A stretch of DNA of 35,561 nucleotides. Source: a virus. The notes below the pieces were generated by a model. That model saw nothing but the letters and a program-made list of their open reading frames with translations. It was not told the origin of the DNA and did no database searches. Position numbers and translations under genes: made by a program. Of the stretch, positions 2,237 to 29,988 are shown one piece after another. The stretch lies in IMG/VR virus record IMGVR_UViG_3300046777_001273, positions 1-35,561 of that record; one strand, given 5' to 3'. How positions within the stretch are numbered: position 1 is the stretch's first letter; each line of letters opens with the position of its first letter.

Positions 2237-3811
2237 ATGGTACAACTTTTTGGCTTTGAAATCAAAAGAAAGCAAGAAGAGCCCCTAGAGTCCTTTGCTC
2301 CCGAAGTAAAAGACGATGGGGCTATCGTTGTTGCGGCAGGGGGTGCGTATGGCACCTATATCGACCTAGATGGTACAGCTCGCACAGAAGCTGAGCTCGT
2401 CTCCAAATATAGAGAAATCTCACAAGCACCTGAAATTGAAATGGCTGTTGACGATATCGTCAATGAAGCTGTTGACACAGAAGCACAAGAGATCGTCACA
2501 ATTAACCTAGACAGGCTTGAGTTCTCGGACAACATTAAAGATAGAATTCGTCAAGAGTTTGATGTTGTCCTTCAGTTACTAAACTTCCAGACAGAAGCAT
2601 ACGAAATCTTTAAGCGCTGGTATGTTGATGGTAGAATGTACTACCATATCATCGTTGACGAAAAGTCACCACGTGAAGGAATTAAAGAACTTCGCTACCT
2701 AGACCCACGAAAGATCCGTAAGGTCCGTGAAGTCAAGAAGGAACGTAAGGGTCCTGTTACTGTAGCTACTACAGCAAAAGAATACTACGTCTATAACGAG
2801 AAGGGATTCCTTCCAGCAGGTGGTAATGCAGGCATGCCAGTCGATAACTCGACTGTTGGTGGACTTCGCATCTCGATAGACTCAATTCTCCACACAACAT
2901 CTGGTCTTATGGATAAGAACAACCAGATGGTTTATTCCTATCTCCAGAAGGCAATCAAGCCTCTCAATCAGCTCCGCACTCTCGAAGATGCAACTGTCAT
3001 CTATCGTATCTCCCGAGCCCCAGAACGTCGAATCTTCTACATCGACGTTGGCAACCTTCCAAAGGCAAAGGCTGAGCAGTATCTCCGCGATATGATGGTT
3101 CGTCACAAGAATCGTCTTGTCTATGATGCCGCTACCGGTGAGGTTAGAGACGATCGCAAGTATATGACAATGTTGGAAGACTATTGGCTTCCTCGTCGTG
3201 AAGGCAACCGTGGTACTGAAATCACAACGCTGCCAGCTGGCCAGAATCTTGGCGAACTAGCTGACGTTCAGTACTTCCAGCGTAAGCTATTCCAGGCTCT
3301 CAACGTTCCTATCTCAAGACTGGAACCAGGCAGTGCAGGATTCAACATTGGACGTGCTGCTGAAATCTCTCGTGACGAAGTCAAGTTCACAAAGTTTGTT
3401 GGACGTCTCCGTCGTCGCTTCTCTCAGATATTCTATAGATCGCTCGAGAAGCAGCTGATCCTTAAGGGAATTGTCAATGAGCAGGACTGGAATGAACTCC
3501 AGAACCTCATCACATTTGACTTCTCGATCGACAACCACTTCGAAGAATTTAAAGAAGCAGAAATCCTTCAGAACCGTATTGCTCTTCTTGGCCAGCTCGA
3601 TCCATACATTGGTCGCTATTACTCAGTTCAGTGGGTTCGCAAGAACATCCTCAAGCAGACCGATGATGATATTGAAAACATGGACCGTGAGATGATGGAA
3701 GATGGATCCGCTGAAGCCCAACAGCAAGCAATGGAACCTGAACAACAAGCACCACCTCAACAGGTCGTAAAGAAGAAGCCAAATATCCCTGGCACTGGTG
3801 CTCAGAACTAA
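2237..3811 (+). CDS. 20: Portal vertex protein gp20
   Basis: Encodes 524 residues, the same length as T4 gp20. It forms the dodecameric portal that nucleates prohead assembly and passes DNA. Recognisable family segments are EIEMAVDDIVNEAV near residue 73, a basic KIRKVREVKKERKGP stretch near 162, YRISRAPERRIFYIDVGNLPK near 256, RLEPGSAGFNIGRAAEISRDE near 361, and an acidic then Gln/Pro-rich C-terminus. An AAGGA ribosome site precedes the ATG by 8-9 nt. It has its own late promoter. An 8-bp perfect inverted repeat lies at 3024-3049 inside the gene. Confidence 0.97.
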   Translation: MVQLFGFEIKRKQEEPLESFAPEVKDDGAIVVAAGGAYGTYIDLDGTARTEAELVSKYREISQAPEIEMAVDDIVNEAVDTEAQEIVTINLDRLEFSDNIKDRIRQEFDVVLQLLNFQTEAYEIFKRWYVDGRMYYHIIVDEKSPREGIKELRYLDPRKIRKVREVKKERKGPVTVATTAKEYYVYNEKGFLPAGGNAGMPVDNSTVGGLRISIDSILHTTSGLMDKNNQMVYSYLQKAIKPLNQLRTLEDATVIYRISRAPERRIFYIDVGNLPKAKAEQYLRDMMVRHKNRLVYDAATGEVRDDRKYMTMLEDYWLPRREGNRGTEITTLPAGQNLGELADVQYFQRKLFQALNVPISRLEPGSAGFNIGRAAEISRDEVKFTKFVGRLRRRFSQIFYRSLEKQLILKGIVNEQDWNELQNLITFDFSIDNHFEEFKEAEILQNRIALLGQLDPYIGRYYSVQWVRKNILKQTDDDIENMDREMMEDGSAEAQQQAMEPEQQAPPQQVVKKKPNIPGTGAQN

Positions 3812-3852: not shown

Positions 3853-4092
3853 ATGGATTCTGTACAGGATATTTTGTTATACGCTACTACTGGTGATCGT
3901 GAGTCGTTCAAGAGTGCTGTCGATGATGCACTGATGAACAAGGCAGTTGATGCAGTCAACTTGATGCGCAACGATGTTGCAGCAAGCATGTTTAGTGCAA
4001 CAACTGGTGGGGAAGAACAGCCTTCTGACGAATATACAACAGACGATCAGCTTTCAGATTCAGCAGAGGACCCAACCGATGAAGACGTTTAA
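3853..4092 (+). CDS. 67: Prohead core protein gp67-like
   Basis: Encodes 79 residues; T4 gp67 has 80. The start is the ATG at 3853, 9 nt after GGAG at 3840-3843; a TTG at 3838 would lie on top of that ribosome site. The N-terminal half is helical (SFKSAVDDALMNKAVDAVNLMRNDVAASMF) and the C-terminal half is very acidic, as in T4 gp67, a scaffold component cleaved by the prohead protease during maturation. Assignment rests on size, this bipartite composition and position directly after the portal. Its last 14 nt overlap the next gene. Confidence 0.8.
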   Translation: MDSVQDILLYATTGDRESFKSAVDDALMNKAVDAVNLMRNDVAASMFSATTGGEEQPSDEYTTDDQLSDSAEDPTDEDV

Positions 4093-5920
4093 AGAAACAC
4101 TAATGGAAGTTCAGGCTCCCCTTTCGCAGGGTGAGAAGAACTTTGTAGACCTTCACAAGCCTGTTCCACACCAGAACCTTGTTCCGGGTGTCACTGATCA
4201 GGATTTCCTGTTCCAGGGTGGTCCACGTCGCATGGATCCAAAGACTGCATCTTATGAAATTGGTAAGTCGGAAGACGAATCGAAGTCTGCATATGATAAG
4301 AACCTCAAGGTCAAGGAAGAAGTTGAACTAGACGAAGCCATCAAGATAGGTTCCAAGGTACGTATTCATTCTCCTAAGCATTCTGATATCCACGGAAAGG
4401 TTGGTACTGTAGGAGAGATCCGTCCAGGTGCACATAAGACTGCTTCCAAGAAGTACACTGTGGACTACAATTACAATCCAGAAACAGGCAGATCAAACTC
4501 AGTCCAGCTGGACAGGACTGAGATTAAGCTGCACAAGGAAGCTATTGAACCAAAGAAGCTGGCATGGGCTCACAATACATATAGTGATTATGTAAAGTAC
4601 CAGAAAGAAAGAGATCTTAAGGTTGTTCCTAAGAAGACATGGCACGAAATAAAAAGTTCAACACAAACAGCCTTGGCTAAAGAAGACGTCGAGCAGGTTG
4701 ATGAACTCTCTAATGAACTTGTGAGCCGTGCTTTAAGAAAAGCTCGTGAACGTAAAGAAACTGGCGAAGAAGAAGTTGGTCGTCGTGACAAACTAATTAA
4801 ACTTGCTGGTAAAAAGCTTTATGGTATTAAAGAAAAAGCTATCTCTGAAGAAGATGATGGCTGGTATGCCCACCACGAGATGCATGGAGATAAGGGTATT
4901 TCCAAGGAAGACTGGAAGAAGGGTTGGAGAATGAACTCCAAGGGCCAGAGAGTCCAGATCAAAAAAGAGGCAGTCGAACTTGACACCCCAGAAAGACATG
5001 ACAAGATCGCAGCGCACCTTGTCGACAGATATGGCAAGAACGTATCTCGTAAGCACATTGATTCAGTAGCTTATGATCTTAAGTCGGATCCTGATAAGAT
5101 CCTGGCTGCCGTAAAGAAGCACCAGGCTAGTATGAAAGAAAGTGTCGAACAGGTTGATGAAGCATTTGCGATTGAGCCAGGAGCAAAGATTGCTTACAAG
5201 GATAAGAAGGGAAACATGACTTACGGTAAGGTCCACGCTAAGGACACCGTTCAGGGTCAGCCTGGAGTCCATATCAAGTGGCAAGATGGAACTGAAGGTC
5301 GCTTCCCAAACCACAAGATCTCTAGCCTATCAATGGACAAGCAAGCCAATTACGTAATTGGTGAAGGTGTTGATATTGAAGAAGCTGAACAGGTTGATGA
5401 GATTGCTGACACACCTCGTGGCAAGAAGAGACTAGCCGATTATCTTGGTAGTGCATCAGATGCTCGTGGCCACCGTGGCATGTCTATTGCAAAGAAGGAC
5501 AAGCGTTATGCAGCTATTGCTAAGGCTTCTAAGATCCTCGATAGGAGACTAAGAGGTGAAGAGGTTGAGCAGGTAGAAGAAGCAAAGGCTACATATTGTG
5601 GTCGTTGTGGAACAACTCACGTTCCTCCCTCACAGGGCGGTAAGTGTCCTGCAGTCAAAGAAGAAGCTGTCATCGAGAAGACTCTTACTCCAAACGAGAA
5701 GAGAGCTCGTGAACGTATTGCCAAGGGCATTGCAAAGAGTAATCCTAACATGCCAATGAGCAAGAAGATGGCTATTGCTACTGCTCGTGCTAAGGAAGTT
5801 GCTGAGGCTGCAAAGAAGCTGATTGGTAGACAGCATGAGATTGATGCTAATAACAACGGTCGCATCGATGCCGAAGACTTTCCACTCCTAAAGGCTAAGA
5901 AGAAGGCAGAGGACAAGTAA
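4079..5920 (+). CDS. Modular head-region protein A (613 aa) with repeated protease-site-like linkers
   Basis: Sits where T4 has gene 68 but is far longer (T4 gp68 is 141 aa). The start is the ATG at 4079 inside the end of gene 67. The protein is a chain of distinct modules. Residues 86-155 form a KOW/SH3-like beta module (IKIGSKVRIHSPKHSDIHG). Residues 205-255 are a helical basic module. Residues 300-350 are a DKIAAHLVDRYGK module, and 362-420 a second beta module (PGAKIAYKDKKGNMTYGKV). Residues 440-490 are another helical module, and 507-523 a CxxC-x3-H-x8-C zinc-ribbon-like element. Residues 589-600 form an EF-hand/dockerin-like loop (DANNNGRIDAED). Near-identical acidic linkers recur at 80-87, 202-211, 354-363, 434-443 and 494-503 (EEVELDEA, EDVEQVDELS, ESVEQVDEA, EEAEQVDEI, EEVEQVEEA). 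These resemble prohead-protease cleavage sites. A virion or scaffold role is inferred from position. Confidence 0.8.
   Translation: MKTFKETLMEVQAPLSQGEKNFVDLHKPVPHQNLVPGVTDQDFLFQGGPRRMDPKTASYEIGKSEDESKSAYDKNLKVKEEVELDEAIKIGSKVRIHSPKHSDIHGKVGTVGEIRPGAHKTASKKYTVDYNYNPETGRSNSVQLDRTEIKLHKEAIEPKKLAWAHNTYSDYVKYQKERDLKVVPKKTWHEIKSSTQTALAKEDVEQVDELSNELVSRALRKARERKETGEEEVGRRDKLIKLAGKKLYGIKEKAISEEDDGWYAHHEMHGDKGISKEDWKKGWRMNSKGQRVQIKKEAVELDTPERHDKIAAHLVDRYGKNVSRKHIDSVAYDLKSDPDKILAAVKKHQASMKESVEQVDEAFAIEPGAKIAYKDKKGNMTYGKVHAKDTVQGQPGVHIKWQDGTEGRFPNHKISSLSMDKQANYVIGEGVDIEEAEQVDEIADTPRGKKRLADYLGSASDARGHRGMSIAKKDKRYAAIAKASKILDRRLRGEEVEQVEEAKATYCGRCGTTHVPPSQGGKCPAVKEEAVIEKTLTPNEKRARERIAKGIAKSNPNMPMSKKMAIATARAKEVAEAAKKLIGRQHEIDANNNGRIDAEDFPLLKAKKKAEDK
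5346..5361 (+). repeat. 16-nt perfect palindrome inside protein A gene
   Basis: CCAATTACGTAATTGG is a gapless perfect dyad within coding sequence (codons for NYVIG). About 0.5 such palindromes are expected by chance in a window this size, so it is not remarkable alone. Confidence 0.9.
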
Positions 5921-5921
5921 T

Positions 5922-8249
5922 ATGGACATCAGAGCTATCCTCGAAGCTGCAAAAGCAAAGAAGGCAGAAGAGAATCGTCCGGAGCACATCATAATGCAGC
6001 TCCGCAAGGTTGAATCGTTACGTGGCCAAAAGCCCGTAACGTTCAACGATGGCTCTACTCATAACATTCCTGTTGCTCATGCCTCCCGTGCACTAACAAT
6101 GCACCAGACAATGAAGCCAATTCCAAAGGGTGAGTTTGAAGCTCGCCTTGCCAAGTCTCATGATTCGTTCATGAGTGCAATCAAAGGTGAGGCTGCTCCA
6201 AAGGCAGAACCTAAGATCAAGCTTGGCGGCAAGATGTGGAGAGAGGAAAAGGTTGTCACTGGTGGCTATAGAACAAAAGATGGCCAGTACATAAAGCCAA
6301 TGACTGGAAGTGATTTAGTCAAAGCAGCAAGAGACAAGAAACTGGCTGCGATGAAGGCACTTGCAAGCACTCGCAAGGAAGAGACAGAGCTAGATGAGGC
6401 TGGTGCATTCTCTTATGGCGCAAAGAAGCCTAAGGCTGGCAGTCTCAAGGCTCAAATGGCAGCACAGTCAAAGAAGTACTGGGATTCTGAGCCTATGATT
6501 GAGCCTAAGGATCAAAAGGTAGGAACTGCTAAAGTTACTAAAGAAGCTAAAGATCCAAGAGAGTATGGATATGAGGGTGATATGGCAGTGTCGCAGCTCA
6601 AGTCTATCATAAGCAACTCGACAGATCTTCTGGATATGATGAAGCCAGAAACAGATCTTCCAGAGTGGGTCCAGTCCAAGATCACTCTTGCGCAGGACTA
6701 CATCCAGACTGCAGCTGATTATATGAAGACAGAGTCTGTAGATGAAGCCGTAAAGGGTTGGAAGAATGCAGGTTCAGACATCTCAAAATGGAGGTCAGAG
6801 CAAGGCAAGGAAGTAAAGCTCGTTGCACTAAAGAAGAATGGCGATGAGAACCAGATGGCCGATGCTACATCATCCCATGCAAGCGAAGAAGAAGCTATCC
6901 GCAAGCACAAGGCCAGAGTTGATAACAACCCAGGCAAGAACATCCGTCACAATCTTTATGTTGGTGGAAAGCTAGTCAAGACACTTGGTGAGGAAGCTGA
7001 GCAGATTGATGAAATCTCCCAGGAGAAGAAGGATCAGTACGCTCAAAGAGCTACTGGTGAATTCTCAATGGCTAACTATGCTAAGAGAATGACGGAGCCA
7101 GGATCCAAGGATCATGAGTTCTGGAAGCGTAAGGAAGCTAATAGACGCAAAGGTCTATCTAGAGCTCTTGCAAAAGAAGAAGCTATCAACGAAGCTCCAA
7201 TGTCTGACGTCTCGCACAGCGTAGCATCCGGTCAGACACTTTCTGGTATTGCAAAGCAGTATGGTAAGTCTCTTGCTGACATCGTCAAAGCTAATCCACA
7301 GATCAAAGATATCAACAAGATCAGTATTGGTCAGAATGTCAATGTTCCTGGTGCAGCTCCAACACCAGCAGCAATGAAGCCTAACACTCCTGCTGGTCCT
7401 TCATCACGTCAGGCACTTGGTTCTACTCTCGGTACACCAAAGGAACCAACAAATGCAGTTCGTCCTGAGGGTCCAGCAAGTGGAATGCCAAAGGGACAGC
7501 CTACATCAATGGTAGCAGGAAAGCCCTCTTCACCAATTGGTAGCTTGCCAGCAGCTCCTCCAAAGTTAACATCACAGACTCCTGGTATTGATAAGCCACT
7601 CAAGCCTTCCACACCATTTGGAGGACAGCGTGGCGGGGATCCTTTCAGTTCTCAGACATATAGACCAACAGGTCAGACTGGTATCGATACTGCTTCTGCA
7701 GCGTTGAAAGCAGCAGGTCAGCTTGCTACTCAAAAGGCAGCTCAGCAGAAGCTGGGTAATGTCCGTATGATAGGTGGCAGAACAACTGCTGGGTATGTCA
7801 ACTCAGTTCGTGAAGATGCCGACGTCAGCACGACAGCATCAGATCGTGGCGAAATCAAGACCTTTGTTAAGATTGGTCCAGATGGTCGTGTTAAGTTAGT
7901 TAAGCGTAGAATGCCTCGTCAGCAGATCGATATCACAAACGCTAGTGGGACAACAGCAGTTGAATCTGTTGGTGTCAACATGCAGCAGGACAGTCTGAAC
8001 AAACTAAAGAAGGAACCTCAGGCTGATCCTAAGAACTTAAAGACTCTTCCTCCAACACAGGGAAACAAGCCTGTTGGTGGTGAAGATCAGGTACATGTAG
8101 GCAAGTTCTCGGTAGCTGAAAATGTTTTGCTAAATACTCTATATCACAGCTTGAATGAAGATAACAAAGTGAAGTTCTACGACGTTCTTGACGCAGAAGA
8201 TGGTCCAGAGAAGCTGTTGAACTTCGCTAAAGAGCAGGGGCTAGAGTAA
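5922..8249 (+). CDS. Modular head-region protein B (775 aa) with LysM domain
   Basis: Follows protein A with a 1-nt gap. Residues 1-100 form an N-terminal domain (MDIRAILEAAKAKKAEE, then HASRALTMHQTMKPIPKGEFEAR). Residues 214-270 hold a helical module with YEGDMAVSQLKSIISN and LPEWVQSKITLAQDYI, a type familiar from T4-like cyanophage proteins. Residues 278-355 hold a beta module. A LysM domain lies at about 430-476 (SHSVASGQTLSGIAKQYGKS, then IGQNVNVP). A long Pro/Gly/Thr-rich linker covers about 476-640, and the C-terminus is acidic. The acidic linker motif of protein A recurs at 153-162, 271-276, 357-366 and 419-428 (ELDEAGA, SVDEA, EQIDEI, AINEA). LysM normally binds peptidoglycan-type glycans, so this part may act at the cell wall during DNA entry. 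Function is inferred, not shown. Confidence 0.8.
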   Translation: MDIRAILEAAKAKKAEENRPEHIIMQLRKVESLRGQKPVTFNDGSTHNIPVAHASRALTMHQTMKPIPKGEFEARLAKSHDSFMSAIKGEAAPKAEPKIKLGGKMWREEKVVTGGYRTKDGQYIKPMTGSDLVKAARDKKLAAMKALASTRKEETELDEAGAFSYGAKKPKAGSLKAQMAAQSKKYWDSEPMIEPKDQKVGTAKVTKEAKDPREYGYEGDMAVSQLKSIISNSTDLLDMMKPETDLPEWVQSKITLAQDYIQTAADYMKTESVDEAVKGWKNAGSDISKWRSEQGKEVKLVALKKNGDENQMADATSSHASEEEAIRKHKARVDNNPGKNIRHNLYVGGKLVKTLGEEAEQIDEISQEKKDQYAQRATGEFSMANYAKRMTEPGSKDHEFWKRKEANRRKGLSRALAKEEAINEAPMSDVSHSVASGQTLSGIAKQYGKSLADIVKANPQIKDINKISIGQNVNVPGAAPTPAAMKPNTPAGPSSRQALGSTLGTPKEPTNAVRPEGPASGMPKGQPTSMVAGKPSSPIGSLPAAPPKLTSQTPGIDKPLKPSTPFGGQRGGDPFSSQTYRPTGQTGIDTASAALKAAGQLATQKAAQQKLGNVRMIGGRTTAGYVNSVREDADVSTTASDRGEIKTFVKIGPDGRVKLVKRRMPRQQIDITNASGTTAVESVGVNMQQDSLNKLKKEPQADPKNLKTLPPTQGNKPVGGEDQVHVGKFSVAENVLLNTLYHSLNEDNKVKFYDVLDAEDGPEKLLNFAKEQGLE
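6009..6047 (+). repeat. Long interrupted hairpin (16 bp) in protein B gene
   Basis: GTTGAA-(T)-CGTTACG-(T)-GGC pairs with GCC-CGTAACG-TTCAAC around the loop CAAAA: 16 pairs interrupted only by two single bulged T residues on the left arm. It lies 87-125 nt into the coding sequence. Confidence 0.92.
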
Positions 8250-8251
8250 TC

Positions 8252-8494
8252 ATGGCAGTCTATAAGTTTTTAGGCACACAAATTGCAATTGGAACAGCTA
8301 ACACGGTTAGCAACAAGCCATTAGCTCGGGTCTATTGCTCGAGCTCTGGCGTCCTTACCCTTGCTTATGCTAATGCTACAGTATATGCAAACGTCACCCT
8401 TGCTACCGGTGAGTCTATTATTGTTGAAAAGGGACCAACAGATACACTTACAGGGGCAAACATGGTAGCCGTCCCAATCGCTTACAGGAACTAA
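8252..8494 (+). CDS. Small beta-rich protein before the prohead protease, function unknown
   Basis: Encodes 80 residues starting 2 nt after protein B and ending 6 nt before the protease gene. The sequence alternates short hydrophobic and Thr/Ala/Asn stretches (VYKFLGTQIAIGTANTVSNK, ATVYANVTLATGESIIVEKG), suggesting a small beta sandwich. No signal peptide, membrane segment or catalytic motif is visible. A similar small protein is often found beside the protease in cyanophage-like genomes. A minor structural or head-decoration role is plausible from location only. Confidence 0.75.
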   Translation: MAVYKFLGTQIAIGTANTVSNKPLARVYCSSSGVLTLAYANATVYANVTLATGESIIVEKGPTDTLTGANMVAVPIAYRN

Positions 8495-8500
8495 CAACAA

Positions 8501-9148
8501 ATGAAGCTGATCACCGAACAAATTGAAGACATCAAAGTTGTTCTCGGCGAAGGGGTCGAGGGCAAGAAAAGTCTATACATCACTGGACCATTCATCCAGA
8601 CAGAACAGAAGAACCGCAACGGCCGCAAGTATGTGCGCGAAGTTATGGAACGTGAAGTCAAGCGCTACACAGAGCAGTTCATCGACAAGGGTCGTGCAAT
8701 GGGTGAACTGGGCCATCCAGATGGCCCATCGATCAATCTCGACCGTGTTGCTATAAAGATTACCGAACTGAAGCAGGATGGCAATGACTTCATTGGTAAG
8801 GCAAAAATCCTTGAGACTCCAATGGGAACAATTGCACGTAACCTGATTGATGGTGGCGTCCAGCTTGGTGTTTCCACACGTGGTATGGGTTCTCTGAAAG
8901 AAGTGAATGGCATCATGGAAGTCCAGGATGACTTCTACCTTGCTACTGCTGCAGATATTGTTGCAGATCCTTCCGCCCCTGATGCTTTTGTTAATGGTGT
9001 CATGGAAGGCGTTGAGTGGGTTTGGGACAGTGGTGTTATTAAGCCACAGCAGGTTGAATCGTACAAGAAGACAATCAAGGCAGCTCCTAAGTCTAACCTA
9101 GAAGAAGCAAAGCTAAGAGTTTTCCAGCATTTCCTTTCAAATCTCTAA
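8501..9148 (+). CDS. 21: Prohead core protease gp21
   Basis: Encodes 215 residues; T4 gp21 has 212. This serine protease is assembled inside the prohead and cleaves scaffold, capsid and internal proteins. The conserved catalytic histidine is H72 in GELGHPDGP and the nucleophile is S125 in LGVSTRGMG. The N-terminus (ITGPFIQTEQKNRNGRKY, residues 27-44) is the family signature. It lies between the modular proteins and the scaffold gene, the T4 order. Its presence supports reading the repeated (V/L/I)-x-E-(A/I) motifs of its neighbours as substrates. Confidence 0.96.
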   Translation: MKLITEQIEDIKVVLGEGVEGKKSLYITGPFIQTEQKNRNGRKYVREVMEREVKRYTEQFIDKGRAMGELGHPDGPSINLDRVAIKITELKQDGNDFIGKAKILETPMGTIARNLIDGGVQLGVSTRGMGSLKEVNGIMEVQDDFYLATAADIVADPSAPDAFVNGVMEGVEWVWDSGVIKPQQVESYKKTIKAAPKSNLEEAKLRVFQHFLSNL

Positions 9149-9189: not shown

Positions 9190-10239
9190 ATGTCAGATAT
9201 CGAAAATAACGAGATCGAAACTGATCTCGAAGTTACACAGCAGGTAGATGAGGCTGCAGATAACTCTGCTGCTAATCAGGCTACGATTGCTGGTAACGCA
9301 ACTGTATCACGTTCCGACCTACTTGCAAAGATGGTCGCATATGCATCAAAGCTCGACAAGGAATCACTTGCTCAGGCTGTTGAAACTCTAACTACATCTC
9401 CAGATGAAGTTTATGCTTCGACACAGCAGGCAACTGGTGACAACTCAGCAAAGAATAAGGCATCGATCAAGTCGTCTGGCGCTCCTGCAGAGCCAATGGC
9501 TTCTGTCAAGGAAGACCTCGCTCTCCTATTTGGTGGCTCAGATGATCTCTCCGAAGACTTCCGTCTAAAGACCGAAGCTCTATTCGAAGCTGCCGTCACA
9601 ACTCGCGTTGAGCTTGAAAGAGCAAAGCTCGAAGAAGCTTACGAAGCTCAGCTTGAAGAAGAAGTCACTGCTGTTGCTGAAGGCATGGTTGAAAGCATTG
9701 ACAGCTACCTAAACGTTGCTGTTGCAGAATGGATGAATGAGAACAAGCTAGCTCTCGAAAGTGGCATTCGCAATGAACTTGCTGAATCGTTCCTGAATGG
9801 TCTACATGATCTCTACACATCACACAATGTCAACATCAACGAAGAAAATGCAGACATCGTCGAATCTCTAGCTGCACGCGTTGAAGAACTTGAAGCTGCT
9901 CTTTCAGAATCTGTTGAAGTGATTGAATCGCTTGCTGTTGAAGTTAACGCAAACGAGATTGCTGAAGTTGTTGATTCAATGACAGAAAGCCTATCAGACG
10001 TCCAGAAGGAAAAGTTTGTCAAGCTGACAGAAGCTATTGATTTCTCAGACGTCGAGGAATTCACGAAGAAGGCTGCAATCATTAAGGAAACCTACTTTAA
10101 TGGTAAGGGCGAAGTTAGAAGCACTCCTGATCAGCTGCTGAGCGAGAGTGTTGAAGAGGAACCAACACAGAACGCTCCTCGTCTTGAACCAGATATGCAG
10201 GTCTACGTCGAATCCCTAACAAGAACTTTCAAAAAATAA
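9190..10239 (+). CDS. 22: Prohead scaffold (core) protein gp22
   Basis: Encodes 349 residues (T4 gp22 has 269), very acidic and almost entirely helical, with Glu/Ala/Leu heptads over roughly residues 125-300. It forms the assembly core of the prohead and is degraded by gp21. Typical features are MVESIDSYLNVAVAEWMNENKLALESG near residue 160 and FLNGLHDLYTSHNVNINEEN near residue 203. Residues 14-23 (EVTQQVDEAA) repeat the linker motif of proteins A and B, consistent with a shared protease site. AAGGAG precedes the ATG. A 7-bp inverted repeat (CGAGATC/GATCTCG) lies 20-39 nt into the gene. Confidence 0.94.
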   Translation: MSDIENNEIETDLEVTQQVDEAADNSAANQATIAGNATVSRSDLLAKMVAYASKLDKESLAQAVETLTTSPDEVYASTQQATGDNSAKNKASIKSSGAPAEPMASVKEDLALLFGGSDDLSEDFRLKTEALFEAAVTTRVELERAKLEEAYEAQLEEEVTAVAEGMVESIDSYLNVAVAEWMNENKLALESGIRNELAESFLNGLHDLYTSHNVNINEENADIVESLAARVEELEAALSESVEVIESLAVEVNANEIAEVVDSMTESLSDVQKEKFVKLTEAIDFSDVEEFTKKAAIIKETYFNGKGEVRSTPDQLLSESVEEEPTQNAPRLEPDMQVYVESLTRTFKK

Positions 10240-10284: not shown

Positions 10285-11649
10285 ATGAACCTTATTAACG
10301 AAGAACTAGTTGCAAAGTGGAAGCCCGTTCTCGAGCATCCAGATCTTGCAAAGATTAGCGATTCACATCGCCGTAACGTAACTGCTGTTGTCCTTGAAAA
10401 TACTGAAAAGGCTATCAAGGAACAGGCAATGTTCAACCCACAGTCTCTATTTGAAACTGCCCCAGTCAACTCAGTTGGTACAGGCGGTTACGGTGGTTCA
10501 GGTGGCACAGGCGTTGCTGGTTACGACCCAATCCTGATCTCTCTCATCCGTCGTGCTATGCCAAACATGATCGCATACGACATCTGCGGCGTTCAGCCAA
10601 TGACTGGCCCAACAGGCCTGATCTTCGCTATGCGTGCTCAGTATGCTAACTCGACAACAAAGAACGGCGAAGCTCTGTATGATGAAGCCGACACTGGCTT
10701 TGCATCGGTTCCTTCGAACGCCAACACAATTGGTAACAAGAACGTTGGTACTGTTCCAGGTACAACTGCACAGACAACTCTGCTTGCTAATTCAAGCACA
10801 TACAACTTCTCTGGCGGTATGCCAACATCGACTTCGGAAGATCTTGGTGCTGGTACAACGTTCCCAGAAATGGCATTCAGCATCGATAAGGTTTCCGTAA
10901 CTGCAAAGTCACGCGCCCTCAAGGCTGAATACACAATGGAACTCGCACAGGACCTGAAGGCAATTCATGGTCTTGACGCTGAGTCAGAGCTTGCAAACAT
11001 CCTTCAGGCTGAAATCCTCGCAGAAATCAACCGTGAAGTTGTTCGTACAATCAACATCTCCGCTGTTCGTGGTGCTGCAACAGGCACAACAACAGCAGGT
11101 ATCTTCGATCTTGACACCGACTCAAACGGTCGTTGGTCAGTTGAAAAGTTCAAGGGCCTAATGTTCCAGATTGAACGTGAAGCTAACAAGATTGCCAAGG
11201 ACACACGTCGTGGCAAGGGTAACATCGTTATCTGTTCGTCAGACGTAGCTTCTGCTCTACAGATGGCTGGTGTCCTTGACTACGCACCTGCTCTAAACAG
11301 CAACAACCTCCAGGTTGATGATACAGGCAATACATTCGCTGGTATCCTCAATGGTCGTTACCGTGTCTACATCGACCCATACACAACTGGCAACTACCTG
11401 ACAGTTGGTTACAAGGGCTCGAATGCCTTCGACGCTGGTATCTTCTACTGCCCATACGTTCCTCTCCAGATGGTTCGTGCAGTTGGTCAGGATACATTCC
11501 AGCCAAAGATTGGCTTCAAGACTCGTTACGGAATGGTTGCAAACCCATTTGCACGTTCTGTTCAGGGTACTCCAAACGTCAGCGATGGTTCAATCACAGA
11601 AGACACCAACGCTTACTACCGCAGAGTTCTTGTTACCAACCTTATGTAA
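10285..11649 (+). CDS. 23: Major capsid protein gp23
   Basis: Encodes 454 residues (T4 gp23 has 521). It has the HK97 fold and builds the capsid hexamers. The N-terminal prosequence likely ends at E57 in PQSLFE/TAPVN, which fits the hydrophobic-x-Glu rule of the T4 prohead protease. After it come a Gly-rich stretch (GTGGYGGSGGTGVAGYDP) and the family hallmark ISLIRRAMPNMIAYDICGVQPMTGP. Further conserved parts are KSRALKAEYTMELAQDLKAIHGLDAE near 210 and the C-terminal KTRYGMVANPFA. AAGGAG precedes the ATG. No gene 24 (vertex protein paralogue) follows, as in cyanophages. A strong terminator ends the operon. Confidence 0.98.
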   Translation: MNLINEELVAKWKPVLEHPDLAKISDSHRRNVTAVVLENTEKAIKEQAMFNPQSLFETAPVNSVGTGGYGGSGGTGVAGYDPILISLIRRAMPNMIAYDICGVQPMTGPTGLIFAMRAQYANSTTKNGEALYDEADTGFASVPSNANTIGNKNVGTVPGTTAQTTLLANSSTYNFSGGMPTSTSEDLGAGTTFPEMAFSIDKVSVTAKSRALKAEYTMELAQDLKAIHGLDAESELANILQAEILAEINREVVRTINISAVRGAATGTTTAGIFDLDTDSNGRWSVEKFKGLMFQIEREANKIAKDTRRGKGNIVICSSDVASALQMAGVLDYAPALNSNNLQVDDTGNTFAGILNGRYRVYIDPYTTGNYLTVGYKGSNAFDAGIFYCPYVPLQMVRAVGQDTFQPKIGFKTRYGMVANPFARSVQGTPNVSDGSITEDTNAYYRRVLVTNLM

Positions 11650-18188: not shown

Positions 18189-18710
18189 ATGGCAGCCGTA
18201 TTAAACCAACCAGACAATATCAATTTCCTTTCTCCGTTTGGCTTTCGCTTTGTTATCAAGCGCATGCCAAACGTTGTCTTTTTCTGCACAGATGTTAATA
18301 TCCCATCTGTGTCAATTTCTGGAATCAATATCCCAACACCACACAAGAACTTCCCTATCTACGGCAACAAGCTCGAGTATGGCAACCTTCGTGTGACATT
18401 CCGTGTTGATGAGAACTTCCAAAACTACCTTGAAATCTACAACTGGCTACAGAACATGACTCATCCTGAGTCATTCAATCAGTTCAATCAACTATCTGGC
18501 CCAATGAACAATACTGGTGATAGCGCTCTATCTGATGCTACTGTCACTATTCTCAACAGTTCTATGGCTCCAAATGCAGAGTTCCAGTTCGAAGATATCT
18601 TCCCAATGAGTATATCAGAACTAAACTTTACTGCGACAGATGGTGACGTCAATTACATCAGTGCGTCTGTTGACTTTGGGTTTAAACTGTTTAAGGTGAA
18701 CGTCCTCTAA
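18189..18710 (+). CDS. Probable tail-tube-fold virion structural protein (173 aa)
   Basis: The layout resembles gp19: GFRFVIKRMPNVVFFCTDVN (first strands), PTPHKNFPIYGNKLEYGNLR, then VTFRVDENFQNYLEIYNWLQ, the same order of strand, loop and W-ending helix found in tube proteins. C-terminal strands are DATVTILNSSMAPNAEF and FPMSISELNFTATDGD. This family is present in T4-like cyanophage genomes next to uvsY and uvsW. A tail terminator, baseplate or tube-related role is inferred from fold pattern and from its late promoter. It is preceded by GGAG 6-9 nt upstream. Confidence 0.72.
   Translation: MAAVLNQPDNINFLSPFGFRFVIKRMPNVVFFCTDVNIPSVSISGINIPTPHKNFPIYGNKLEYGNLRVTFRVDENFQNYLEIYNWLQNMTHPESFNQFNQLSGPMNNTGDSALSDATVTILNSSMAPNAEFQFEDIFPMSISELNFTATDGDVNYISASVDFGFKLFKVNVL
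18235..18273 (+). repeat. Two-part hairpin in the tube-like gene
   Basis: CGTTTGGC (18235-18242) pairs with GCCAAACG (18266-18273), and the inner CGCTT (18246-18250) pairs with AAGCG (18258-18262) around TGTTATC. The 3x3 internal bases between the stems are unpaired or weak. It lies 46-84 nt into the coding sequence. Confidence 0.9.
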
Positions 18711-18726
18711 CTTTCTAGGCTATATT

Positions 18727-19161
18727 ATGAAACTTGAAGAAATCCACGAATGGTGGGCTGTTGATTGTGAAGTTGACCGTACGGAACTTGGTGAAGAGAG
18801 CTTGAAGATTCCAAAGCTCCACAGCAAATACCTTAGGGTGTACTCTGAGGAACGAATGCTCCTCAAGAGGCTCGAAGAGGAGCGCAAACAGTTTGCTCAC
18901 CTCAAAAATGACTACTACCGAGGTATCCTTGCAGAAGAAGATCTTAAGGAACATGGGTGGGAACCATTCCGTCTCAACGTTCTTAAGAGCGATGTGCCAA
19001 TGTACGTTGACTCTGATACTGACATGATTAAGCTCAACCTGCGAATTGCTATGCAGCAGGAGAAGGTCGATATTCTTGAATCGATTATCCGCTCGATAAA
19101 TAATCGAGGGTATTTGATTAAGAATGCGATTGAGTATGAAAAGTTCAAGGTTGGCGCGTGA
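18727..19161 (+). CDS. uvsY: Recombination mediator UvsY
   Basis: Encodes 144 residues; T4 UvsY has 137. UvsY hexamers help load UvsX recombinase on gp32-covered single-stranded DNA. Matching regions are the N-terminal MKLEEIHEWWAVDCEVDRTE, the YLRVYSEERMLLKRLEEERK helix, the LKNDYYRGI segment (T4 has LDYYSG), and the C-terminal SIIRSINNRGYLIKNAIEYE (T4 SRGFAIKHIQDM). In T4 uvsY also lies beside uvsW. Its terminal 67 nt contain a late-promoter-like dyad just ahead of uvsW. Confidence 0.92.
   Translation: MKLEEIHEWWAVDCEVDRTELGEESLKIPKLHSKYLRVYSEERMLLKRLEEERKQFAHLKNDYYRGILAEEDLKEHGWEPFRLNVLKSDVPMYVDSDTDMIKLNLRIAMQQEKVDILESIIRSINNRGYLIKNAIEYEKFKVGA
19092..19108 (+). repeat. Inverted repeat holding a late-promoter box before uvsW
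   Basis: CTCGAT / ATCGAG (6 bp) around loop AAATA. The GATAAATA at 19095-19102 matches the late consensus at 7 of 8 positions and again sits at the apex of the dyad, as in the portal promoter. It lies inside the end of uvsY. Confidence 0.75.
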
Positions 19162-19162
19162 T

Positions 19163-20608
19163 GTGGTTCGCCTCACAAAGATAAACGAAACATTCATCAA
19201 GGTCTCGTCCGAGCCTTCTGTTGTTCAAGAACTATCCGAACACCTAACATTTACTGTACCTGGGGCAAAGTTCATGCCCCAGGTCCGTAACAAGTACTGG
19301 GATGGAAAGATCCGTCTGCTCAACAGCATGACAGGTCTAACATACACCGGTCTTGTTAAGGAGATAGGTGAGTTCTGTAACAGTAGAAACTACGACATTG
19401 AACTAGATCCAAAGCTCGTCTACGACAAGAAGTTTACAGAGATCAACGAGTTCGTTGAGTCTCTCAAGCTCAATCCAAAGTACAAGTGCAGAGAGTACCA
19501 GATAGAGTCACTTCGTCTTGCCGTAGAAGACGAGAGACACATCTTCTTGTCGCCTACAGCATCTGGTAAATCTCTCAGCATCTACCTCATCACGAAATAC
19601 TTCAACAGCCGTGGGCACAAGACGCTAGTCATTGTCCCCACGGTTTCCCTCGTTCTTCAGATGAAAAAAGATTTCGAGGACTATGCAGGGAAGGGTCTCG
19701 ACATCCACTGCATCACTGCAGGCGTCGATAAGGAATCGGACAGCCCAATCGTCATCAGCACGTGGCAGTCAATCTATAAGATGCCAAAGACGTGGTTTGC
19801 TCAGTTTGGCACAGTCGTGGGCGACGAGGTCCATCTGTTCAAGGCAACGTCACTAAAGTCAATCATGGAGAAGCTCGAGAACACTCGTTATCGTTTTGGG
19901 TTCACAGGAACACTTGATGGCTCGTTGACAAACAAGATAACACTTGAAGGTCTGTTTGGTCCCGTCAAGCAATTGACTACAACTTCTGAACTTATGGAGC
20001 AGAATCTTGTTGCCGATTTAAAAATAGTCGGTATAATACTTATGTACGATTCAGACTCTAGGAAACTAACAAGCAAATACACATATCAGCAAGAGGTAGA
20101 CTTCTTAGTTCGTAACGAGAAGAGAAACAAGTATATACGGAATCTCGCAGCCAACGTTAAAGGGAACACATTAATTCTGTTCCAGTTCGTTGAAAAGCAC
20201 GGCAAGGTTCTATATGATATGCTAAGTCAAATGGACACAAAACGAAAAGTGTTCTTTGTCCATGGTGGTGTTGAAGGAGAGGATCGTGAACAGATCAGAG
20301 CTATTGTTGAGCAGGAATCAGATGCAATCATTGTTGCATCTTACGGTACATTTTCAACTGGTGTTAACATACGGAATCTTCATAACGTTATACTTGGTTC
20401 TCCATCTAAGTCACGTGTTCGCGTCCTTCAGTCGATAGGTCGAGGACTGCGCCTGGGTGAAGGGAAAGACCAAATGACCCTATACGATATCGCAGATGAT
20501 CTAAAGCATAGGTCTAGGTTGAACTTCACACTTGAGCACTTCACAGAAAGACTCAACATCTACAACAGTGAACAATTCACATACAAACTTGTCAAAGTAG
20601 AGCTTTAA
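19163..20608 (+). CDS. uvsW: DNA/RNA helicase UvsW
   Basis: Encodes 481 residues from GTG 19163 (T4 about 500). An ATG at 19124 is an alternative that overlaps uvsY by 38 nt; the T4 protein begins in register with the GTG. Superfamily 2 helicase motifs are visible: Walker A SPTASGKS (about 130-137), DEVH (221-224), GFTGTLDG, and GRGLRLGEG near the end. The N-terminal NKYWDGKIRLL segment is typical of UvsW. It unwinds branched DNA and R-loops and helps switch replication to recombination-dependent mode. A late-promoter-like box precedes it, matching T4 where uvsW is a late gene. Confidence 0.95.
   Translation: MVRLTKINETFIKVSSEPSVVQELSEHLTFTVPGAKFMPQVRNKYWDGKIRLLNSMTGLTYTGLVKEIGEFCNSRNYDIELDPKLVYDKKFTEINEFVESLKLNPKYKCREYQIESLRLAVEDERHIFLSPTASGKSLSIYLITKYFNSRGHKTLVIVPTVSLVLQMKKDFEDYAGKGLDIHCITAGVDKESDSPIVISTWQSIYKMPKTWFAQFGTVVGDEVHLFKATSLKSIMEKLENTRYRFGFTGTLDGSLTNKITLEGLFGPVKQLTTTSELMEQNLVADLKIVGIILMYDSDSRKLTSKYTYQQEVDFLVRNEKRNKYIRNLAANVKGNTLILFQFVEKHGKVLYDMLSQMDTKRKVFFVHGGVEGEDREQIRAIVEQESDAIIVASYGTFSTGVNIRNLHNVILGSPSKSRVRVLQSIGRGLRLGEGKDQMTLYDIADDLKHRSRLNFTLEHFTERLNIYNSEQFTYKLVKVEL
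19258..19284 (+). repeat. Perfect 10-bp inverted repeat in uvsW
   Basis: ACCTGGGGCA (19258-19267), 7-nt loop AAGTTCA, TGCCCCAGGT (19275-19284). Perfectly paired, 95-121 nt into the coding sequence. Confidence 0.95.
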
Positions 20609-25940: not shown

Positions 25941-26187
25941 CCAGAAGATAGGTGGGTTCAGGCTCGATAATTATTTCATCGCCCTCCCGCCAAACAACTT
26001 CCTTGTCGAGGACGAGGATGGCAATCTCCATGTTCTTGTTGACATTTACAAGCTAGACGGGGATACTCAGACTAAGGTTAGTGAATCAGAAATCACACCA
26101 GAACTAGAACAGAGAATTAACGCATACATCAACGAGATGTTGCTCCAGGCTGTAGAAGCAGAAGAAGGTGATAATGTCAAAGATTAA
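25927..26187 (+). CDS. Hypothetical acidic protein (86 aa)
   Basis: Starts within the deformylase gene (14-nt overlap) and ends within queE (14-nt overlap). A strand-rich N-terminal part (FRLDNYFIALPPNNFLVEDE, LHVLVDIYKLDG) is followed by an acidic helix (TPELEQRINAYINEMLLQAV). No motif recognised. Confidence 0.7.
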   Translation: MTEDNQKIGGFRLDNYFIALPPNNFLVEDEDGNLHVLVDIYKLDGDTQTKVSESEITPELEQRINAYINEMLLQAVEAEEGDNVKD

Positions 26188-27031
26188 GGTTGCAGAATTA
26201 TTTTATTCCCTCCAGGGCGAGGGTCAGTACCTAGGAACTCCTAGTGTATTCCTTCGAGTGTTTGGCTGCAACTTTAAGTGTGCAGGGTTCTCGATGCCTC
26301 GCGGACAGTTGTCAGAGGAACGTCTTGCTATTGATCCAGACAAGTACACGAAGTATGATGATCTCCCTCTTGTCCATACTGGTTGTGACTCGTATGCGTC
26401 TTGGGATCCTCGCTTCAAGCATCTCAGCCCACTGCTCGAGATCACCGAGATTGTTGACCGCATGCAGGAAATCCTTCCTGATGGAAAGTTTGGGCCCGAT
26501 AAGCATCTGATCCTTACTGGTGGTGAGCCTCTTCTTGGTTGGCAGAAAGCTTACATCGAGCTGTTCGAAGAGCTTCACAAGCGAGATATGAATCTCACCC
26601 ACATCACGTTTGAGACCAATGGTACTCAACCACTACGTGGGGAGTTAATCGATTGGTTTATGACTAATCCATATTACCCATCTCTTGACGTTACGTTCAG
26701 CGTCTCGTCCAAGCTCCCATCGTCGGGTGAGGCTTGGGAAGATGCAATCAAGCCAGAGATTATTCATGACTACTTCAATACCAGCAATCTGACATATTTC
26801 AAGTGGGTCGTTAGTAATCAAGAGGACTATGAAGATGTACTTCGTGCCATAGATGTCTATGGAAAGACGTTGCAGATGGATAGAATTCCAGTGTATATTA
26901 TGCCCGCTGGTGGCACTACAATGCATTATGACCAGAACGAACGTTGGGTCGCCAATCTGTGTATGAAGCATGGCTGGAGATATACGCCTCGTCTCCAGGT
27001 CCAGCTGTGGAAGAATGCGTGGGGCACGTGA
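26174..27031 (+). CDS. queE: 7-carboxy-7-deazaguanine synthase QueE (radical SAM)
   Basis: The start is ATG 26174, after GAAGAAGGTG; a GTG 6 nt upstream is less likely. Encodes 285 residues. The N-terminus VAELFYSLQGEGQYLGTPSVF is the QueE signature. Cluster cysteines appear at C32 and C36 (CNFKC) and C71 (TGCDSYASWD), so the usual CxxxCxxC is split by about 30 extra residues between the second and third Cys. TGGEPLLG (residues 116-123) and FETNGTQPL are further family motifs. QueE converts carboxy-tetrahydropterin to 7-carboxy-7-deazaguanine, the first 7-deazaguanine base. Confidence 0.92.
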   Translation: MSKIKVAELFYSLQGEGQYLGTPSVFLRVFGCNFKCAGFSMPRGQLSEERLAIDPDKYTKYDDLPLVHTGCDSYASWDPRFKHLSPLLEITEIVDRMQEILPDGKFGPDKHLILTGGEPLLGWQKAYIELFEELHKRDMNLTHITFETNGTQPLRGELIDWFMTNPYYPSLDVTFSVSSKLPSSGEAWEDAIKPEIIHDYFNTSNLTYFKWVVSNQEDYEDVLRAIDVYGKTLQMDRIPVYIMPAGGTTMHYDQNERWVANLCMKHGWRYTPRLQVQLWKNAWGT

Positions 27032-29787: not shown

Positions 29788-29988
29788 ATGAAGAAGTTTG
29801 TTGAGCTATTTGGTGAAGAGACAAAGAAGCTCCACCCAATGGCTGTTCACGTACAGTACAAGAAGGGTGGACAAAGTGTCGTGACTCATGTAGGGTCAAA
29901 GGTCACTCACGTCAAGCCAGGCGATACAGTAACATCTGCAGATCTTGACGATCTGCATGATGCAGGCCACAAGGTGAAAGAGGTCTAA
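29788..29988 (+). CDS. Hypothetical protein (66 aa)
   Basis: MKKFVELFGEETKKLHPMAV opens a short protein with a beta-rich middle (HVQYKKGGQSVVTHVGSKVT) and an acidic helix near the end (SADLDDLHDAGHKVKEV). Its stop codon sits in the loop of the downstream terminator. Function unknown. Confidence 0.72.
   Translation: MKKFVELFGEETKKLHPMAVHVQYKKGGQSVVTHVGSKVTHVKPGDTVTSADLDDLHDAGHKVKEV

Follow-up and report, generated by a model that had tools for sequence, protein, structure and literature searches.

The genomic locus described here raises the question of why two adjacent genes in a T4-like head gene cluster, called A and B, encode chains of dissimilar units joined by short acidic linkers, and whether the units are cut apart and packaged in the head. 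The window, by which we mean the whole stretch of DNA analysed, is IMG/VR record IMGVR_UViG_3300046777_001273 (35,561 nt, positions 1-35,561, one strand). Pfam searches identify it as a fragment of a T4-like phage, with tail sheath, tube, portal, gp21, gp22 and gp23 in T4 order. A and B lie between genes 67 and 21, which is the position of gene 68 in T4: the window reads 20-67-A-B-x-21-22-23 and its T4 counterpart 20-67-68-21-22-23. The gp67-like call was made by eye from the translation set beside T4 gp67 (MEGLIEAIKSNDLVAARKLFAEAMAARTIDLIKEEKIAIARNFL...) together with the matching gene order, and carries no statistic. The ORF at 8252-8494, which has no Pfam match, is a putative head protein. 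An earlier note on this DNA had proposed two polyprotein-like head genes with prohead-protease sites between their modules, and its coordinates were borne out: A spans 4079-5920 (613 aa from the ATG of MKTFKETLME, chosen downstream of position 3974, where the mechanical ORF begins) and B spans 5922-8249 (775 aa). Elsewhere in the window, an ORF at 26168-27031 between a gp46-like SMC-family ATPase gene and the clamp genes is weakly radical-SAM-like (Pfam E=1.5e-5, below the cut-off).

Table 1. Coordinates of the head genes, the predicted units of A and B and related features in the window. Numbers after site motifs are residue numbers.
Feature	Positions	Strand	Evidence or remark
gp20 portal protein	2237..3811	+	Pfam Portal_T4 E=7e-180
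Acidic gp67-like prohead core protein (MDSVQDILLYATTGDRESFKSAVDDALMNKAVDAVNLMRNDVAASMFS...DEDV)	3853..4092	+	14-nt overlap with A start
A, CTS-like propeptide MKTFKETLME, predicted cut after Glu10	4079..4108	+	likeness to 10-residue T4 CTS
A unit 1, N-terminal core (NT, VQAPLSQGEKNF...) to site ELDE86	4109..4336	+	101 relatives (HMM)
A unit 2, AIKIGSKVRIH..., KOW-like by eye, ends QVDE209	4337..4705	+	3 HMM hits
A units 3-4, LSNELVSRALRKARE... and EDDGWYAHHEMHG..., end VELD302 (degenerate)	4706..4984	+	
A unit 5, TPERHDKIAAHLVDRYG..., ends QVDE361	4985..5161	+	8 hits
A unit 6, AFAIEPGAKIAYKDKKGN..., predicted small beta barrel, then tandem sites DIEE435/QVDE441	5162..5401	+	
A unit 7, IADTPRGKKRLADYLGSA..., [LI]SKxTLGSY family (A442-501), ends QVEE501	5402..5581	+	
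A unit 8, AKATYCGRCGTTHVPPSQGGKCP, zinc-knuckle-like, ends AVIE533	5582..5677	+	by eye
A unit 9, KTLTPNEKRARERIAKGIAKSNPNMPMSKKMAIATARAKEVAE (LTP, 43 aa, A534-576)	5678..5806	+	110 ORFs
A unit 10, calcium-loop-like ...GRQHEIDANNNGRIDAEDF..., A C-terminus	5807..5917	+	62 hits
B N-terminus MDIRAILE/A, possible second CTS-like propeptide	5922..5945	+	sequence
B units HIIMQLRKV... (B1) and GGYRTKDGQY..., end ELDE159	5946..6398	+	B1 56 hits
B unit EYGYEGDM...WVQSKI...DYM (EYG), ends SVDE275	6399..6746	+	132 hits
B unit AVKGWKNAGSDISKW..., ends QIDE364	6747..7013	+	stand-alone homologue in Xanthomonas phage X1
B unit ISQEKKDQYAQRATGEFSMANYAKRM..., ends INE424	7014..7193	+	similar start after QIDE/ in L084 (VSAATKDSYAQRAG)
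B LysM unit, Pro-rich stretch, conserved C-terminal core (CT, LLNTLYHSLNEDNKVKFYDVLD...FAKEQG)	7194..8246	+	CT 64 hits
Small beta-rich ORF (x)	8252..8494	+	similar ORFs immediately 5' of gp21 in many relatives
gp21 prohead protease (Peptidase_S77), presumed cutter	8501..9148	+	Pfam E=6e-37
gp22 scaffold	9190..10239	+	T4_CASP E=4e-56
gp23 major capsid protein, predicted cut SLFE57/T	10285..11649	+	Pfam Gp23 E=5e-147
27-nt linker repeats	4679, 5135, 5375, 5555, 6987		strongest direct-repeat family of the gene pair
CTS-bearing single-unit protein MKKFVELFGE/ETKKLHPMAVHV..., 66 aa	29788..29988	+	

All nine linkers that had been counted in A and B are present and end in [VLI][DEN]E, namely ELDE86/A, QVDE209/L, QVDE361/A, QVDE441/I and QVEE501/A in A and ELDE159/A, SVDE275/A, QIDE364/I and INE424/A in B (numbered by the P1 Glu), and in eight of the nine the residue that follows is Ala or Ile, in line with the earlier description. 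With additional sites at A10 (TLME/V), A533 (AVIE/K), A576 (EVAE/A) and B8 (AILE/A), they agree with the Peptidase_S77 pattern of [LI]xE followed by a small residue. When each protein was shuffled 5000 times with its composition kept, [VLI][DEN]E followed by Ala or Ile was expected 0.28 times in A and 0.21 times in B, against five and four observed, and no shuffle reached the observed linker counts. The same motif was found 116 times, with 33 expected, across 43 full-length relatives. T4 gp21 cuts after L/I-x-E (PMC9026906), and the frequent Val at P3 in the A and B linkers was counted against our preferred reading of a polyprotein cut by gp21. So was the boundary at A302, which reads VELD where relatives show LDE or IDE, since an Asp at the cut position stopped the processing of T4 IPIII (PMC9026906); the cut in B at ELDE159 is predicted from the motif only. 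The capsid cut that had been predicted at SLFE/T gained support from relatives: 76 of 81 keep Leu at P3 and 70 of 81 keep Glu at P1, and the next residue is mostly Ala or Thr. The copy of the element reported near the gp22 N-terminus is indeed there (QVDE21/A) but is not conserved above background, and it adds little, since relatives have the motif at the N-terminus of gp22 (31/78) no more often than in the rest of the protein (204/539).

To compare unit boundaries, we retrieved 80 relatives by gp23 and more loci by three conserved units, and aligned the units. Pattern scans with A and B found few loci and a whole-protein search of A among isolated phages gave no match, but splitting the proteins into units and aligning these overcame the scarcity of loci, and units of A and B were found to recur in hundreds of environmental T4-like phages. 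Contexts counted as unrelated when their upstream 15 residues were <60% identical between occurrences, a filter under which common descent of the flank is not a ready explanation for a motif held in common. The LTP unit, which had no match among isolated phage records at E<=0.01, begins directly behind [VLIM]xE in 56 of 61 such contexts, against a background of 0.024 in the same proteins. Per-column pairwise identity in the flank before the unit is 0.06-0.14, apart from P3 (0.31) and P1 (0.93); it remains high over most of the unit and falls just past the terminal Glu (VAE), from 0.71 to 0.12. This block of conservation, which starts after one site and stops at the next, marks the unit as a site-to-site segment.

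Other units begin in the same way. Members of the [LI]SKxTLGSY family directly follow [VLI]xE in 30 of 31 unrelated contexts, a site immediately precedes the LSTDL unit in 7/7, the N-terminal core has one at its start in 23/33, behind propeptides that differ among relatives, and [VLIM]xE stands at the boundary of the calcium-loop unit in 15/34. The counterparts of unit 5 in four relatives (L219, L084, L176, L217) start directly after [LI]DE. By eye, the zinc-knuckle unit AKATYCGRCGTTHV, which comes after QVEE/ in A, has counterparts after LNE/ in gp079 of Flavobacterium phage immuto (KKATHCGRCGHTHV) and after IDE/ in L183. The pattern is not universal, and we counted the exceptions against the reading: the 5' boundary of the EYG unit, found at more than 570 IMG/VR loci, is not exact, the cyanophage units CWPGY, RDWF and RRENPG have no sharp boundary at a site, and the N-terminal cores of some relatives lack the Glu (for instance ILNG/F in L019, L091 and L093). 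Nevertheless, since recurring units start exactly after [VLI]xE in unrelated contexts, the linkers are very probably gp21 sites, and the proposal of a polyprotein with prohead-protease sites between its modules is strongly supported.

The relatives also bear on the number of genes. In 43 of them, one ORF carries both cores, the N-terminal one known from A and the C-terminal one known from B, so that A and B appear from their sequences to be one member of a modular polyprotein family split in two; the polyprotein part of the earlier claim holds, and its two genes are better read as halves. The split falls between units, and the second half starts MDIRAILE/A. Between their constant ends, the 43 relatives show 14 architectures, or unit orders, with core-to-core spans of 156-1028 aa, which is the gain, loss and reordering of modules between linkers that had been suggested as a check.

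As for the units themselves, the view that they are small folded modules was upheld in part. Pfam detects in A and B only LysM in B (E=5.7e-9) and a sub-threshold EF-hand at the calcium loop of A (E=0.04), and the zinc element was recognised by eye. AlphaFold2 on the single sequence of unit 6 gave six strands with a pLDDT of 74, which predicts a barrel with fair confidence; SH3/Tudor-like folds were among its Foldseek hits, but none reached E<=0.001, and as a result we claim no function for it. Structure prediction for unit 2 gave no confident fold. A prediction for the whole of A without an alignment was poor (pLDDT 47) and was not used for fold searches.

The start of A, MKTFKETLME/V, was absent from the earlier note and probably matters, being CTS-like and ending in the gp21 motif: like T4 internal proteins, A has an N-terminal peptide of about 10 aa ending in [LI]xE. 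The likeness is to the letters that we take to be those of the T4 CTS. That peptide has ten residues, directs proteins into the head, suffices for packaging and ends in L/I-x-E (PMC9026906). Similar starts precede units that stand free of the polyprotein. The LTP unit occurs behind CTS-like N-termini (MKSFKQIRE/KTLTP, MKNFKQLVE/KTLTK, MRNFKSFLEE/KTLTP) as well as behind internal linkers (EEVELDE/KTLTP). In Xanthomonas phage X1, the unit at B276-355 exists as a complete CTS protein of 92 aa (MTFEEFLGE/AIKGWKHAHNDLAKH; E=4e-12 over 99% of the B unit), with the similarity starting at the residue after the predicted cut. The window itself encodes a protein of this kind at 29788-29988, whose body matches a polyprotein unit in two relatives (L133, E=4e-6; L173, E=1e-5). 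By regular expression, CTS-like starts are about twofold commoner in module-bearing ORFs (97/286) than in other ORFs (270/1581), a comparison too permissive to be strong evidence. As a separate observation, the C-terminal unit of a cyanophage modular protein (L005 4707-6833) is also a short protein in small phages (H131-H139), the hosts of which are cyanobacteria, Pelagibacter and Methylophilales.

The alternative that survives best accepts cleavage but not delivery: A and B would be an overgrown prohead core protein, which gp21 shreds to clear the head before DNA packaging, and the units would be space filler or head-size determinants. A and B may be such a disposable scaffold because T4 gp22, gp67 and gp68 are also cut by gp21 into fragments, which are mostly lost from the head, and the parallel in gene order and the constant ends around a middle of variable length suit it too. 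So does the S-SM1 homologue SSM1_115, which is annotated as hypothetical only, though the S-SM1 virion had mass spectrometry. However, units of A and B are also free, CTS-tagged proteins at other loci, a filler would not need LysM, zinc-knuckle-like, calcium-loop-like and barrel elements, and no sequence homology was detected between the N-terminal core and T4 gp68 (hhalign probability 0.3%). The content of a related virion also argues against it. The virion proteome of Synechococcus phage S-CREM2 includes gp160, detected with 7 unique peptides (PMC10665884 Table 3), and gp154 and gp136 were likewise detected in purified virions by mass spectrometry (PMC10665884). S-CREM2 gp160 is modular, shares units with the modular protein of S-SM2 and has LSE/, LEE/ and ISE/ boundaries, and the starts of gp154 (MKNFSSFLTE/A) and gp136 (MQTFSMFFSE/D) are CTS-like. 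These detections show that this kind of protein is packaged, not that it is cleaved. We regard the scaffold explanation as unlikely, though not negligible, and the packed cargo of effector modules foreseen by the earlier note as plausible. We also note that gp154, a virion-associated cytidylyltransferase, is encoded at 18709-19569 of S-CREM2 (L320), and its CTS-like N-terminus would explain its presence in virions.

A second alternative denies cleavage altogether, and takes A and B for uncleaved multidomain head proteins in which the acidic linkers are flexible spacers and the P1 Glu and P3 hydrophobic residue belong to the fold of each unit. E-rich linkers are commonplace in acidic phage proteins, and the bare triplet [VLI]xE, which is uninformative alone, is marginally enriched in A and not enriched in B (10 vs 8.5). 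But unrelated units start with an identical P3/P1 pattern, the CTS of their free versions closes with this motif in the corresponding position, and the capsid protein of these phages has the motif as well, which makes this explanation very improbable. Weaker still, and to our minds scarcely credible, is the idea that 24-27 nt of linker DNA merely lets units shuffle and the protein motif is incidental: the best direct-repeat family within 4079-8249 consists of exactly five linkers (27 nt, five copies, 70-85% identity to the reference copy), but linker codons differ between linkers while the amino acids stay the same, and CTS-type boundaries have the xxE motif in common, not the linker DNA. The linker repeat could nevertheless aid unit shuffling as a recombination point, and such recombination may operate alongside the cleavage that we favour.

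Our preferred reading is that A and B are two halves of a modular prohead polyprotein in the gene 68 place of a T4-like head cluster. The propeptide MKTFKETLME would recruit the polyprotein into the assembling core as the T4 CTS does, and gp21 would then act on the N-terminal site and on every acidic linker, cutting behind [VLI]xE, so that within the head some ten to fifteen small units are freed along with the end pieces. Since each linker would be a self-contained cut site, units could be gained, lost and swapped with free CTS-tagged internal proteins while head assembly is undisturbed. At least some of the released units would most likely stay with the DNA and reach the host like T4 internal proteins. 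The comparison shows that units recur, that they start exactly after [VLI]xE, that architectures vary and that free CTS-bearing forms exist; gp21 cleavage, virion retention, injection and any host target are what we infer. Cleavage at the linkers, taken alone, we consider highly likely, and the full model, in which the polyprotein is cut and part of the cargo at least is retained, reasonably probable. Whether it extends to a widespread group of aquatic T4-like phages, as an exchangeable cargo cassette by which one gene yields many small injected proteins and acquires new units through the [VLI]xE linker and swaps with free CTS-tagged proteins, is in our estimation evenly poised. With the A/B layout, a single gene could supply the head with several different small proteins, which suggests a way for phages abundant in fresh and marine waters to bring along a number of early-acting factors in one gene. 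It also gives a means, based on sequence, of recognising hundreds of unannotated candidates for head packaging and of placing the cut in each at the correct residue, so that candidate units become directly testable as single small proteins.

The openly accessible literature that we searched yielded no description of such a train of units linked by cut sites, and several known systems resemble it in part. T4 gp67, gp68 and gp22 share the gene neighbourhood and are cut into several fragments by gp21; unlike these core proteins, A and B have a middle of exchangeable units common to unrelated proteins. In phiKZ and SPN3US, prohead proteases process ejection proteins of the head by cutting after xxE, in some of them more than once (PMC5694885, PMC10052503), but in the portions of those reports that we draw on, multiple cuts in long propeptides lead to one mature protein and a train of interchangeable units is not described. 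Polyvalent proteins, known from phages and conjugative elements (Iyer et al. 2017), also place many domains in one host-bound polypeptide, and for some of them processing into units has been proposed (PMC5512222). There a built-in metallopeptidase does the processing, whereas A and B would depend on a separate head protease, short linker sites and units of 30-120 aa, and Pfam found in A and B none of the effector or enzyme domains, often with an MPTase domain, that characterise polyvalent proteins. Cyanophage proteins S-SM2 SSM2_109 (T4-GC 119) and S-CREM2 gp160 are modular with the same kind of sites, SSM2_109 having the EYG unit in common with B and gp160 being found in virions; they are annotated as hypothetical only, consist mostly of different units and lie between terminase genes 16 and 17 or near a cytidylyltransferase gene, not between 20 and 21. 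The T4 internal proteins IPI, IPII and IPIII likewise start with a short targeting peptide that ends in [LI]xE. Their CTS is removed by gp21, and these small, variable proteins are packed with the DNA and, once injected, inhibit GmrSD restriction enzymes (PMC9026906, PMC12373910). In contrast to these proteins, with one unit per gene, A and B chain many units with predicted cut sites between them, and if our reading is true, the T4 CTS and internal-protein system extends from single proteins to exchangeable polyproteins.
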